Below, in pieces: positions 90-60,482 of a stretch of DNA of 64,000 nucleotides. The stretch is taken from NCBI RefSeq assembly GCF_965638725.1, contig NC_134974.1:2936143-3000142 (forward strand). The letters run 5' to 3'. Below the pieces are notes generated by a model, which was not told the origin of the DNA, searched no databases, and saw only the letters and a program-made list of their open reading frames with translations. The first letter of the stretch is position 1; each line of letters starts with the position of its first letter. The position numbers were made by a program, and so were the translations under genes. The DNA comes from Aptenodytes patagonicus. Lineage: Eukaryota > Chordata > Aves > Sphenisciformes > Spheniscidae.

Positions 90-3617
<3,528 letters not shown>

Positions 3618-3682: not shown

Positions 3683-3688
3683 AATAAA
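3683..3688 (+). terminator. Poly(A) signal of the V-ATPase A gene
   Basis: A canonical AATAAA lies 66 bases after the stop codon, giving a very short 3' UTR. No other AATAAA is near. Confidence 0.8.
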
Positions 3689-3689
3689 G

Positions 3690-4496
3690 GGCCCGAGGCA
3701 GCACGTGGCCTCCAGGCGTGGTTTCCCTGCGGCGGGTGGGAGCGTCCGGTTCCCCCCCCCTCCCCCTGCGGGCGCTGGCACCGGACCCTCACTGGGGGGG
3801 GGGGGGGGGCCGGGGGGGGTCCCTTTCCTGCTCCAGCCAGGAAAGAAGAGGGGAGGAAAGCCAGGGGGGGTCTGGGGGGGCAGCGCCTTCGGGGCCTGGG
3901 AGGATTTTGGGGGGTTGACGTGGTGGTTTTGGTGTTCAGCTGCCCCCTGGCAAGAAGCCCCCTTTCTCCGCGCTGAGCCCCGGTGGATTTGGTGCACGTG
4001 GGGGGGACCCCGGGGGGGGCGCAGCGGGGACAAGCTGCCTGCGGTGGGGCGGCGGGGGGACGTGGGGGTGACTGCGACCCCCTGGATGGGACGTGGGGGT
4101 GACGGTGACACCCTGGGTGGGACACGGGGGTGGCGGTGACCCCCTGGGTGGGACGTGGGGGTGACGGTGACACCCTGGGTGAGACGTGGGGGTGGCGGTG
4201 ACCCCCTGGACCATCCCCGAGCATCCTCCAGTGGTGGGACACAGGGGTGACAGTAACCCCCCCCCCCGTCTGGGACACAGGGGTGACAATGACCTCCCGG
4301 GCCAGAGCTGCCCTGACGAGGGAGGTGACAACACCGGGACTCGGGAGGGGGGACACAGCCGGGTACCGCGGGTGCATTTGGGGGCGGCCAAGGCGGATAC
4401 CGGGAAGGAGCCGCCCGCCACGTGGCTGGATCCGACCCGCGGGGGGCTTTGCGTCCCTATTTGCCCCCCCCCCCCCCCCCCCCCCGGGGCTGGCGC
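3690..4496. other. Spacer between V-ATPase A and the Ig gene, with a short tandem repeat
   Basis: No gene seen. At 4062-4300 there are about six copies of a 30-34 base unit containing GGGACGTGGGGGTGACGGTGA. A run of more than 20 C follows at about 4465-4485, immediately before the large palindrome. Confidence 0.6.
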
Positions 4497-4579
4497 GGTC
4501 TACCCCGGGGGGGCCCCCCGCCCCCTCATGCCGGGGGTCCCCCGGCATGAGGGGGCGGGGGGCCCCCCCGGGGTAGACC
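4497..4579. repeat. Perfect 41-bp inverted repeat with a 1-nt spacer (hairpin/cruciform)
   Basis: Left arm 4497-4537, spacer base 4538, right arm 4539-4579. I matched the right arm to the reverse complement of the left without a mismatch. Outside the perfect core, the flanks (CCCCGGGGCT on the left, its near reverse complement on the right to about 4610) continue to pair imperfectly, so the complete palindrome may be near 70 bases per arm. It sits about 130 bases upstream of the Ig gene start, next to a long C run. Confidence 0.95.
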
Positions 4580-4705
4580 CCGGTAGCCCCGGGGTGGGGG
4601 GGTGGTCTTGGGTCCTCTGTGTGTGTGTCCGTCCCCGCCCTCGGTGCCGCCCCCGTCCGCCCCGTCCCCCGCCCCGTCCCGCCCCGCCGGAGCCACAGCC
4701 CGGAG

Positions 4706-6432
4706 ATGTGGGTCCTGCTGCTGCCCCTGGGGCTGGGCTCCGCCCTGCTGCCCCCCGGTGGGTCACGCTTGGGGGGCCGGGGGAGGGAGGGTGCAGGGGG
4801 TCCGGGGGTCTCTGGGGGGCTGCGGGGTGCGGGGGTGCAGGGGGTTGCAGGGCGCAGAGGGTGCTGGGGGGCTGCGGGGTGCGGGGTTGCAGGGGGTTGC
4901 GGAGGGTGCAGGGGGTCCGGGGGTCTCTGGGGGGCTGCGGGGTGCAGGGGGTCGCAGAGGGTGCAGGGGGTCCGGGGGTCTCTGGGGGGCTGCGGGGGTG
5001 CAGGGGGTTGCAGAGGGTGCGGAGGGTGCAGGGGGGTGCAGGGGGTCCGGGAGGTGCCGGGGCAGCGGGAGCAGCGGGGGGCTACGGGAGACAGTGGGGC
5101 TCGGGGCTGGGGGAGGAGACGTCCCCGTCCCTGTCCCCGTCCCTATCACTTCCCACGCCCCTGTCCCTGCCCCCGTGTCCCTGTCCCCATCCTGGTCCCG
5201 GTCCCGTCCCCGAGCTAAAGGTGGTGACAGTCCCCGAGTGTCCCACAGCGGTGAGTCCCTGCCATGGCCATGCCGTGGGACGGTGACAGTGCCCAGGGTC
5301 CTGCAGCAGTGTCCCCCATGGCCATGGGACTGTGACAGTGCCCCAGGGTCCTGCACCGGTGGGTACCCACGCTGGGCGGGTGCCAGTGACAGTCCCCGTT
5401 GTCCCCAGTCCCCCTGGCGCTGGCCCTCGGCCGTGACACAGCCACGTCGGCCGCGGGCAGTGGTGACCTGTCGGAGGGCTGCGGGCTGTGCCACAGCCCC
5501 CACCGCGGCTGGGCGCAGGCCAACGGCACGCTGGGTGCCAACGTCACCCTGGGGTGCCCCGCAGTGGGTGCCCCCCTGGGCCGGCTGCTGGCTGTGCACT
5601 GGCACTTCTGGGGTGGCCCCGTGGGCACCAGTGCCACCATCTGCAGCCAGAGCCGTGGCCGCCCCCGCTGTGGCCCACCCTACCGCGACCGTGCCGTGCT
5701 GTCGGTACCCGGTGGCACCCCGGGGGTGCTGGTCCTGCAGCGCCTGCAGGATGAGGACGCCGGCATCTACACCTGCCTGCTGCTGGGCGAGGACGACTGC
5801 GCCTGCGGGAACGTGACGCTGCTCCTCGGCAGTGAGTGGTGGCGGGGAGCCCCTCACCCTGGCGTCGGGGCTGCGGGGATGGCGGGTGGTGGGAGCCCCT
5901 CACCCTGGCATCAGGCCTGTGGGCACTATGGGCACGGTAGGGGGTGGGAGCCCCTCACCCTGGCGTCGGGGCTGCGGGGATGGTGGGTGGTGGGAGCCCC
6001 TCACCCTGGCGTCAGGGCTGTGAGGATGGTGGGAGCCCCTCACCCTGGCATCAGGCCTGTGGGTGCTATGGGCACGGTAGGGGGTGGGAGCCCTTCCCCC
6101 TGGCGTCAGGGCCTGTGGGCGCTATGGGCACGGTAGGGGGTGGGAGCCCCTCACCCTGGCATCGGGGCTGCGGGGATGGCGGGTGGTGGGAGCCCCTCAC
6201 CCTGGCGTCGGGGCTGTGGGGATGGCGGGAGCCCCTCACCCTGGCGTCGGGGCTGCGGAGACGTGGGCAGCCCCTGAGGTGGTTCCCCCCGTCCCCCGTC
6301 TTCCCCCCCCCCCCCGCAGGTGCCCCCTGCAGCCCCCCCTGCTCCGGGGCCTCCCCCCGTGGCGGCTTCAGCCTCGGCCTCCTCCTCCTCCTGCTGCTGC
6401 CGCCGCTGCTGCTGCCGGCCGGCGGCCTGTGA
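4706..6432 (+). CDS. Single Ig V-like domain protein, probably GPI-anchored; not recognised
   Basis: Three exons join in phase: 4706-4757, 5409-5831, 6320-6432 (195 residues). Exon 1 is a signal peptide beginning MWVLLLPLGLGSALLPP. Exon 2 is one Ig-like V domain: NVTLGCP for the B-strand cysteine, VHWHFW for the core tryptophan, and LQDEDAGIYTC for the F strand. Extra cysteines in EGCGLCHSP, ATICSQ and DDCACG suggest additional disulphides. Two N-glycosylation sites (NGTL, NVTL) are present. Exon 3 ends in a leucine-rich hydrophobic stretch running to the stop with no basic tail, the usual form of a GPI-attachment signal, although a short membrane anchor is possible. The start follows directly on a GC-rich leader. 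I could not assign an orthologue; a receptor or ligand of leukocyte or adhesion type is an inference only. Confidence 0.7.
4780..5060 (+). repeat. Tandem repeat in Ig-gene intron 1
   Basis: Units of roughly 45-70 bases built from GGTGCAGGGGGTCCGGGGGT and TCTCTGGGGGGCTGCGGGG, repeated about five times directly downstream of the first exon. Confidence 0.85.
5225..5400 (+). repeat. Short tandem repeat before Ig exon 2
   Basis: About four imperfect copies of a unit of about 45 bases with CCATGGCCATG, GGGACGGTGACAGTGCC and CCCAGGGTCCTGCA, ending near the acceptor of the Ig-domain exon. Confidence 0.7.
5835..6275 (+). repeat. Minisatellite filling Ig-gene intron 2
   Basis: About ten copies of a unit of about 45 bases, GGTGGGAGCCCCTCACCCTGG followed by a variable CGTCGGGGCTGCGGGGATGG or ATCAGGCCTGTGGGCGCTAT half. 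It occupies nearly the whole intron between the Ig-domain exon and the anchor exon. Confidence 0.9.
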
Positions 6433-51699: not shown

Positions 51700-52760
51700 G
51701 GGTCACGTTACCGGCCACGGGGGGGGGGGGGACGGGGACGGGACGAGGGGACCCCGCCCGCAGGCACCGGCACCGGCACCGGGCAGGGTCGCACCGGCAC
51801 CGGGCAGAGCTCCCCCCCCGGCCACAGCAGCACCCACCCGGGTGGTCCCCAGTGATCCCCCTCCGGATCCCCGACAGTGTCCCGTCCCCCCCCCCCCCCC
51901 CCCGGAGCATCCTTGTGCGTGTGAGCGTGGGGTGACGAGGGGACCCGCCAGAGCCGGGCAGGGGCTGGTGTCACCCGTGTGCAACAGACACGCACACACA
52001 GAGCGGGACGCACACCCCCCCCCCCGTACCCCCCGTGGGGGCAACGCCAGCCCCGAGGCTGCCACTTAGGGGGGGCGTGGGGTGTGGGGCTGTGGGCCGT
52101 GAGGCCGTGGGGCGTGGAGCCGTGGGTCCGTGGGAGCGCGGGGCGTGGAGCCGTGGGTCCGGGGTCCTTGGGCGCGTGGGGCCGTGGGGTGTGGGACCGT
52201 GGTGTGCGGAGCCGTGGGTCCAGGGGGCGTGGGAGCGTGGGGTGCGGAGCCGTGGGTCCAGGGGGCGTGGGAGCGTGGGGTGCGGAGCCGTGGCTCCGTG
52301 GGAGCGTGGGGCGCGGCGCCGCGGCCGCCCCACACAAGGCCCCGCTGTTCCCGGGCCGGGGCCGGTTCCCCGGGGCCGCGGCACAAAGCGCCTTTGTCCG
52401 CCCGGGGGGGCCGGGGGGGGGGGGGGGGGGCCGGCACTGCGCGGGGGCTCCCGGAGGCGGCCTCGGGCACCGGGGGAGGGCCTGGCCACCGATGGGGGGT
52501 GGCTAGTGACCACAGAAGCCCTGGCTAGTGATGGGGGCCCTGGCCAGGGCCGGGGGGTCCTGGCTGGTGATGAGGGGTCCTGGGATGGGGGGGGGCTGGG
52601 ATAGTGATGGGGGGCCCTGGGCTAGTGGTGGGGGGCCCTGGGCTGCTGATGTGAGGGGCCCAGGCTAATGAAGGGGGGACCTGGGCTAATGATGGGGGGG
52701 CCCGGGCTAATAAAAGGGGTACCTGGGCTAATGATGGGGAACCCTGGGCTAGTGGGGGGG
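51700..52760. other. Spacer between the KCNJ10 and KCNJ9 promoters
   Basis: Contains two arrays: 52075-52310, units GGGGCGTGGAGCCGTGGGTC; and 52505-52760, units GGGGCCCTGGGCTAATGATG. No PIGM reading frame was found, although PIGM is the human gene between KCNJ9 and KCNJ10. Confidence 0.7.
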
Positions 52761-53099
52761 GGCTCTGGGCCCGCGGGGAGGGCGGGACCTCGTGTGCACC
52801 CCCACCCCCCCACCCCCCGCCGTGCTCAGTGTCACACGCGTGTGCACACACCTCCCCACCCTGCTGTGCCCTGTGTCACCCCCCCCCACTGTGCCCCACG
52901 TCACGCGCGTGTCCCCCCCGCACTGTCCCACGTACCCAGCACGCAGTGCCCGCGGCCCAAGAGTGCGCACCTGCCCCCACCCCCCCCCCCCCCGCGCCCC
53001 CGCACACGCGTGTGCGCAAACACCACACACCCCCCCCCCCCCGCCTGCCTTCCCACGCGTGTGCACCGCACCGCCGCCTTCCGGGCCCTGCCCGCCCGG

Positions 53100-53437
53100 G
53101 GCGGGGGGTCACGCGTGGGGGGCCGGGGGCGGGCGGGGCCGGCGGGGGCGGGCGCTGGTCGGTATTTTTAGCCGCGCGCTCCCGGGGCGCAGCCGTTGCC
53201 GGGCAACGGCGGGAGCGCGGCCAAGGGAACGGCGGGGGGGGGGGGGGGGGGACACGGGACGGCGGGGGGGGGGGGGGGGGGGGGGGGCGGGGGTGTGTGT
53301 GCTGCTCCGGGACCGGAACCGAGCCGGGACCGAGCGGGAGCGATCCGGTGCGGCCGGGCGCTGCGCTCGCCCTGCGCCATGCGCGCAGCGCACCGGGGCT
53401 GCGCGGCCCGGCGGGAGCGGCGGCCGCGGGGCGAGCG
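53100..53437 (+). promoter_or_regulatory. KCNJ9: Probable KCNJ9 promoter and non-coding exon 1
   Basis: A GTATTTTTAG element at about 53162 resembles a MEF2 or TATA-like site. A perfect palindrome, CCGTTGCCGGGCAACGG, at 53193-53209 fits the RFX X-box (GTTGCC-N-GGCAAC). A strong donor, GGCGAGCG then GTGAGTGC, closes a probable first exon at 53437. Two G runs of 15-20 bases interrupt the promoter. The run from here to the coding exon is one intron. Confidence 0.55.
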
Positions 53438-53839
53438 GTGAGTGCGGGGCCGGGGGGCGGGGGGGGGGGGGCACACACACGGGCCGGGGGGGGGCCTGCT
53501 ACCCCCTCCCCCCCGCCCCATCGCCCCCTGCAACCCCCCCCCCCCCCCCCTCCGCAGCACACGGGGGTGGCACCGGGGACACCCACCCACACACACACTT
53601 CCGCGGGTGGGGGGGGGTGTGCGGGGGGCACGCGGGGGCCCGGCCTGCGCAGAGGGCCCCCCCCCCGCCCCCAGCACAGACCGCGGAGGATGCACACACA
53701 CCCCCCCCCCCGCCTCCGTTCTACCCCCAGGCTGGGGGGGGTCCGTCCCCACGAACCCGGTGGGAGTGGGGTGCCCCACGGTGGGGAAGGGGGGGGGGGG
53801 CACAGCTGGGTGCCGCAGGGCCCCTCAGGCCGGGGGGGG

Positions 53840-59245: not shown

Positions 59246-59509
59246 CGCTGGTGCAGGGGGCTGTGGGCCCCACGGCCGTGCCCCCCCCATGCCCTTGAGC
59301 TGCCCTTGACGGTTGCTATGGCGACTAAGCCGGACCCTGGGGGGCGGCGGGGGGGAGCAGGGAAGGGGGGGTGTACTGGGAGGGGACCTCGGAGCGGGAC
59401 TGGGGGCACTGGGGCTGCGGGGCAGGACTGGAGGCGGGAGGGAAGGGGAGCAGGGAGGGTGGTCTTGGGGGGGGCACTGGGGGGGGGGGGGGTAGGGGGT
59501 GTCAGAACC

Positions 59510-59715
59510 TGACACCGGGCACCGTTCCGGCACAAACGTGTCCCCGGGCACAACCGTGTCCCTGGGCACAGCCACCCTGGGTACAGCCGGTCCCCGGGCA
59601 CAGTCGGCCATAGGCACAGTCAGTCCCCCGGGCACAACCGTGTCCCTGGACACAGCCAGCCCGGGCACAGCCGGTTCCCGGGCACAGCCGGTCCTCGGGC
59701 ACAGACCCCCCCGGA
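59510..59715 (+). repeat. CCGGGCACAGCC repeat
   Basis: About twelve copies of a 14-18 base unit, CCCGGGCACAACCGTGTCCC and CCGGGCACAGCCGGT, followed by a C run of about 20. Confidence 0.88.
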
Positions 59716-59739
59716 ACAGCCCCCCCCCCCCCCCCCCCG

Positions 59740-60482
59740 CCTGGCCTTTCCCCGGCTAATTTTAGCCGTCCCGCGTTCCCGGTTGCTGCCCGGTGGCACC
59801 AGCGTCCCCGGCCGGGGCAGGGCCGGCCGGGGCAGGAACATACTGGGAGAACCGGGGACACGCCGGAGTGGGGACCAGCCCCCCCCCCCCCCCCCCCCCG
59901 AAACTGCCCCCCTCCTGGGGTCACCCCCTGCTCTGGGGGGGCTGCAGGGAGGGACCCAGGCGTCCGGGCGGCCCCTGCCCCCCTTCCCCCCACCCCAAGC
60001 CCTGGGGTCAGCGTGGGGGGCCCGGACGCCGGGGTCCCCTGCGCCCCCCCCCAGCCTTGGGGTCAGCGGGGCGGTCAGGAGGGGGCGCCCCCCCCCGGCC
60101 CGGACACCTGCGTTCCCAGCGCTCGGCCGGGACCCGCCACCGCCCCGGCCGCCTGGGTCCCACGGCCGCCTCCGGGGGGGGTGTCTGTGTGTGCGTGACC
60201 GGGAGGGGCCCGGAGACCCCCCAGCACGGCCGGGGGGCGCGGGAGGAGCCCCCTCCATAACGTGGGGGGGGACCGGAGAGGGGGTCCGGGGCGGGGGAGG
60301 AGGGTCCGGGTCCGGCCAGGAGGGGCCGGGGGGATGGAGGGGGGGGCGGGGGGGGGGGGGGGGGGCCGGCCCGGCCGGGTGGGCGGGGGGGGCCGGGCCG
60401 GGCGGGGCCCGGGAGGGTTTTTCTCGGCCGCCGCCGCCGCCACCCCCGAGTGCCCCGGGCCGAGAGCAGCGACGGCAGCGCC
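59740..60482 (+). promoter_or_regulatory. ATP1A2: ATP1A2 CpG-island promoter and 5' UTR
   Basis: CpG-dense DNA immediately upstream of the ATP1A2 ATG with long G runs near 60350 and a GCC repeat (TCGGCCGCCGCCGCCGCCAC) at about 60424. The transcription start is not resolved. Confidence 0.55.

Follow-up and report, generated by a model that had tools for sequence, protein, structure and literature searches.

The question raised by this locus is whether a long, perfect palindrome lying against a cytosine homopolymer in penguin DNA is a genuine part of the genome and, if so, by what process it came about. The window analyzed here is the whole stretch of 64,000 nucleotides from Aptenodytes patagonicus, which corresponds to positions 2936143-3000142 of a 3.2-Mb contig (C26) in a genome of 1.35 Gb. 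Base-by-base pairing around T4538 confirms what had been read from the sequence alone: 4497-4537 and 4539-4579 are exact reverse complements of 41 bp each, with this single T at the centre. The imperfect pairing reported to continue outwards was also recovered, with 62 of 67 pairs (67 nt, 93%) formed as far as 4471/4605 and mismatches at 4496/4580, 4493/4583, 4492/4584, 4481/4595 and 4473/4603; in the outermost 15 pairs a C homopolymer faces G-rich DNA, so that these pairs carry little information. The long C run adjoining the palindrome is a stretch of 22 cytosines, and the distance of about 130 bases given to the start of an Ig gene agrees with the 126 bases found between the right arm and the ATG at 4706. 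The features are as follows (C26 and C316 being the two contigs on which the locus was found).

4464-4485, no strand: C22 homopolymer, overlapping part of the outer left arm; C26 and C316 differ here
4471-4496, forward strand: imperfect outward extension of the left arm, with 21 of 26 pairs formed on C26
4497-4537, forward strand: left palindrome arm of 41 bp, pairing with 4539-4579 without a mismatch
4538, no strand: central unpaired T, between both arms
4539-4579, reverse strand: right arm of the palindrome, 41 bp, exact reverse complement of the left arm
4580-4605, reverse strand: outer imperfect right arm, sequence identical in C26 and C316
4706-4757, forward strand: putative exon 1 of the Ig-like gene (ATG plus signal peptide), from sequence and open-reading-frame reading
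about 5409-5831 and 6320-6432: further putative exons of the Ig-like gene, splice sites placed by eye

Perfect arms of 41 bp are far beyond chance. Simulations were based on 36 Markov-generated sequences of 64 kb (12 each at orders 1, 3 and 5), among which the longest arms measured 10-15 bp, and the next longest perfect arm in the window itself (loop 0-10) is 13 bp; the rarity claimed for the palindrome is thus upheld. A control sample was drawn from the same contig only and comprised 18 other C26 stretches, each 10 kb or just under (179,942 bp together). No arm of at least 15 bp was found in these 18 stretches, and 17 of them contain no arm of at least 12 bp; the longest control arm, 14 bp, is a G-run arm in stretch L010. 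The accompanying claim that such palindromes are unstable in most genomes proved too strong for a length of 80-100 bp: in a catalogue of the human genome, the mean number of near-perfect palindromes of this length per chromosome is 84 (PMC7680136). These fall in the same length class as the penguin palindrome; however, the catalogue counts palindromes whose central 8 bases are perfect and that have no more than 4 mismatches, whereas the penguin palindrome is very GC-rich and centred on a single base. According to a review (PMC7999016), the risk to genome stability rises with longer and more similar arms and with short or absent spacers.

Evidence that bears on the reality of the palindrome comes from a search of the genome with 4460-4620, which returned a second copy of the locus on contig C316 (46,127 bp). 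This contig aligns to C26 from its first base to its last, as two collinear blocks that meet at a small repeat difference. Between the two contigs there are 299 substitutions over 45,857 ungapped bases – a divergence of 0.65%, with transitions and transversions in the ratio 224/75 (2.99) – and 214 indels, 99 of which are pure G or C and may in part be length errors; the counts refer to the two long alignment blocks only, with a small overlap between blocks counted twice. Alignments of less than 94% identity or of up to 300 bp were set aside, as were other shorter or less similar alignments, mostly matches between repeat units. Because collinearity is end to end, divergence is 0.65% and the transition/transversion ratio is 2.99, C316 is very probably the other allele of the region and not a very recent duplicate, and the pattern of differences fits an unpurged alternate haplotype, not random errors. 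The likely haplotig, of 46 kb, covers window positions 1-28837 and C26 sequence upstream of the window. Gene copy counts taken from the assembly may therefore be inflated here: the Ig gene, for one, appears twice. A single bin at 2-3 kb of the window holds 76 of the 299 substitutions, and 2035-3033 is occupied by a minisatellite of GGGATGGGGAT-type units that lies inside a V-ATPase A gene.

The 83-bp core of the palindrome is identical in C316 (21795-21877), where it is present once and has the same flanks on both sides. Only two substitutions distinguish the copies within 4400-4700, one in the C run and one at 4496 that changes one arm only. At this position C26 has C and C316 has G, and because of this G the arms of C316 are perfect over 44 bp as against 41 bp in C26. 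Beyond the 44 pairs C316 has two adjacent mismatched pairs (4492-4493 against 4583-4584), which are common to both copies, and then 10 further perfect pairs.

The sequence-only reading had offered two possibilities, a real cruciform-forming element or a fold-back artefact of sequencing through the adjacent homopolymer, and inclined mildly to real DNA. For the latter to hold, fold-back copying at the C run, in sequencing or in assembly, would have to have become fixed in the consensus. There are grounds on which this might be suspected: a C22 run adjoins the palindrome; in mammals, non-B DNA has been measured to affect both the depth and the error rate of PacBio reads (work cited in PMC6792250, a paper that has GC-rich bird genes missing from assemblies among its subjects); and fold-back reads do exist, at about 0.55-0.6% in ONT genomic DNA (PMC12870357). 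Such reads share with the penguin locus an inverted copy adjoining itself. In that study, however, a fold-back read is defined by a second segment that starts about halfway along the read and aligns back over the locus of the first in reverse orientation, whereas the palindrome exits into new flank, is found in two assembled copies (C26 and C316, with the same flanks on either side) and carries an unmirrored substitution. Virtually no fold-back reads are reported there for PacBio HiFi, on three PacBio samples in all, and HiFi need not be the platform of the present assembly. Furthermore, an artefact would mirror the arm's own allele, yet in C26 base 4496 is unmirrored at 4580 and bases 4492-4493 are unmirrored at 4583-4584. 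Long reads usually err in homopolymer length; the arm mismatches are substitutions, not errors of this type. An artefact would also be expected at other homopolymers, but the window's 38 other G/C runs of at least 14 bases all lack a neighbouring perfect palindrome (arms above 13 bp, loop 0-10). Since C316 carries the same palindrome in the same flanks, and since C4496 is not mirrored, we consider a fold-back artefact very unlikely, and that the palindrome is real DNA is well supported. Of the two possibilities real DNA is thus favoured and the artefact unsupported, while "cruciform-forming element" stands as a hairpin prediction only. Support extends to the suggestion that the outer arms look like genuine sequence in an early stage of divergence.

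How did the palindrome arise? We think it probable that an inverted copy was made at one locus in the past, by a short-range template switch or by fold-back copying during repair, and that this copy is now slowly decaying. According to this hypothesis, DNA polymerase would stall in hairpin-prone, homopolymer-rich DNA, change over to the opposite strand (or to the nascent strand itself), copy about 44-56 bases backwards and then return, the product being a near-perfect palindrome with a one-base centre. The palindrome would then spread until both haplotypes of the sequenced individual carried it, and would decay, so far by one adjacent two-base mismatch common to both copies and one substitution that differs between them. 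The switching event, its direction, and decay in place of repeated re-perfecting are all inferred. Consistent with a single locus, the genome search returned no palindrome locus beyond the C26 and C316 copies, its counts being lower bounds.

Near-perfect inverted repeats are reported to be made perfect by template switching, and hairpin stems to be created by it in one step (PMC7954356, PMC8794818). The likeness to such template-switch mutations, and to the conversion of quasi-palindromes into palindromes, is that a local inverted copy results in a perfect inverted repeat with a short spacer or none; unlike the cases described in these papers, the penguin event is a reconstruction, and the DNA is unusually GC-rich, with a one-base centre and long arms. 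Two features sit less easily with a template switch. With a single base at the centre, one strand can fold back only if the innermost pair is opened, so that the event would call for a switch between strands or for a short centre that existed beforehand. In addition, arms of 44-56 bp are at the long end of the range; a pattern of this kind of up to 59 bp in rRNA genes is described in PMC8794818, where it failed that study's quality control. Break-induced or fold-back break repair would leave a scar similar to that of a replication switch, and for related microinversions break-induced replication has been put forward as the route (PMC8755829). Our literature search found nothing that joins template switching, quasi-palindromes and birds, and among the titles and abstract openings covered there is apparently no report of such a palindrome in a bird.

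The succession of 44 perfect, 2 mismatched and 10 perfect pairs in C316 fits a single inverted copy of some 56 bp that mutated afterwards; the original would have been at least 44 bp and perhaps about 56 bp long. In ungapped pairing, the outer 15 bases of the left arm match their mirrored place at 12 of 15 positions, a score reached or exceeded at just 47 of 127,550 places across the window. They are therefore likely to be part of the copy, although the case for 56 bp relies on CCCCGGGG, a sequence identical to its own reverse complement. Over 56 pairs the arms differ at 2 (C316) or 3 (C26), that is, by 5.5 or 8.2 times the divergence between C26 and C316; these ratios assume a uniform rate, and with the minisatellite, which inflates the divergence, left out they become approximately 7 and 11. 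For the 44 pairs with no mismatch the 95% upper limit is about 10 times the same divergence. These ratios, and the presence of the palindrome in both copies, place its origin before the two copies split, but not at an ancient date.

The pattern of mismatches also allows a different history, in which an older quasi-palindrome has been kept near-perfect by repeated template-switch correction, so that inner pairs are re-perfected and outer ones diverge. Every arm mismatch indeed lies outside the inner 41 (C26) or 44 (C316) pairs, the probability that three random mismatches in 56 pairs would all fall within the outer 15 being 0.016, and the G at 4496 in C316 could be a correction that extended the perfect arm from 41 to 44 bp. 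However, the clustering is weakened because two of the three are neighbours and may go back to a single event, and 0 mismatches in 44 pairs at the observed divergence is explained without correction. Homogenization of the inner arms is for this reason possible but not needed, and we regard such a history as unlikely, if the least unlikely of the rivals to a single switch. Far less plausible still, and least so of all the alternatives considered, is a palindromic transposable element, either fold-back or a MITE-like copy: the shape resembles a long terminal inverted repeat, but four of the six genome matches are the C26 and C316 copies themselves, each on both strands, and the other two cover only query positions 3-39 and 5-37, at the C-run end. 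Dispersed repeat copies are therefore not supported, only the C26 and C316 matches extending past the C-run end (match counts are lower bounds, simple and very common words having been skipped). No target-site duplication was seen by eye beside the arms. Two arm fragments were also scanned for exact matches, the first in viral contigs and the second in contigs of prokaryote genomes; neither gave a hit, as expected because this is animal DNA.

The GC content of 0.70, the 39 G/C runs of at least 14 bases in the window and the minisatellites suggest that the region belongs to a GC-rich, bird-like microchromosome. Runs of 14-24 G or C bases are clustered at 51886-53550 (six runs) and 59479-60365 (four runs). 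Upstream of the palindrome is a gene for V-ATPase catalytic subunit A, named from the exon at 617-778 (E 4.9e-30 to solved structures); a Pfam scan of its C-terminal exon returned no family, and an AATAAA is present at 3683. Downstream, 4706-6432 would encode a small Ig-domain protein with a signal peptide and, judged by eye, a C-terminal hydrophobic segment. The best solved match of its exon 2 is the polymeric Ig receptor, at a modest E of 9.9e-07, and Pfam Ig models match below their cut-off; the exon 2 protein is identical in C26 and C316. A paralogue of this gene was sought as a source of an outgroup promoter, but the genome search with exon 2 matched only C26 and C316. The next gene downstream is of PMP22/claudin type, on a Pfam match below cut-off; we take its sequence to resemble the lens protein LIM2. 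On this gene reading the palindrome is non-coding and lies either between genes or within the Ig gene's leader.

The DNA strand is predicted to fold to one hairpin of -63.7 kcal/mol (z -13.3, against a mean of -28.9 for shuffled sequences) with a 40-bp stem and a 3-nt loop, and RNA of 4440-4720 has a predicted fold of z -8.5; an Rfam search of the whole window at gathering thresholds gave no match. Together with the position of the palindrome 126 bp before the Ig ATG, such strong predicted folding of both DNA and RNA could be taken to indicate a functional hairpin or cruciform, maintained by selection as a cis-element of the promoter or 5' leader and acting on transcription or translation of the Ig gene. 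A long perfect palindrome nevertheless folds strongly regardless of its origin, and compensatory changes between C26 and C316 are absent: the sole arm substitution is uncompensated. Nor is there a clear CpG-island promoter (CpG observed/expected 0.53-0.60 in the two 250-base bins that surround the palindrome), and extrusion is expected to be slow where the centre is very GC-rich, which argues against function as a cruciform. The strand can form a stable hairpin by prediction, and extrusion in cells is putative. Position before the Ig gene is suggestive only, and a cis-element of this kind is quite improbable, a selected function of any sort for the palindrome being rated at about the same low level. 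Slimmer again is the chance that a young hairpin, made in one step by template switching and carried on both haplotypes, alters expression of the Ig-like gene from its leader or promoter; if true, a regulatory structure would have been gained in a single mutation.

A suspicious perfect palindrome beside a homopolymer can thus be genuine, and present on both alleles, and an unpurged haplotig in the same assembly can go far to separate a real palindrome from a fold-back artefact. In biological terms, the penguin palindrome would be a clean further case of local inverted copying, a mutation type already known, in what appears to be very GC-rich microchromosome DNA.
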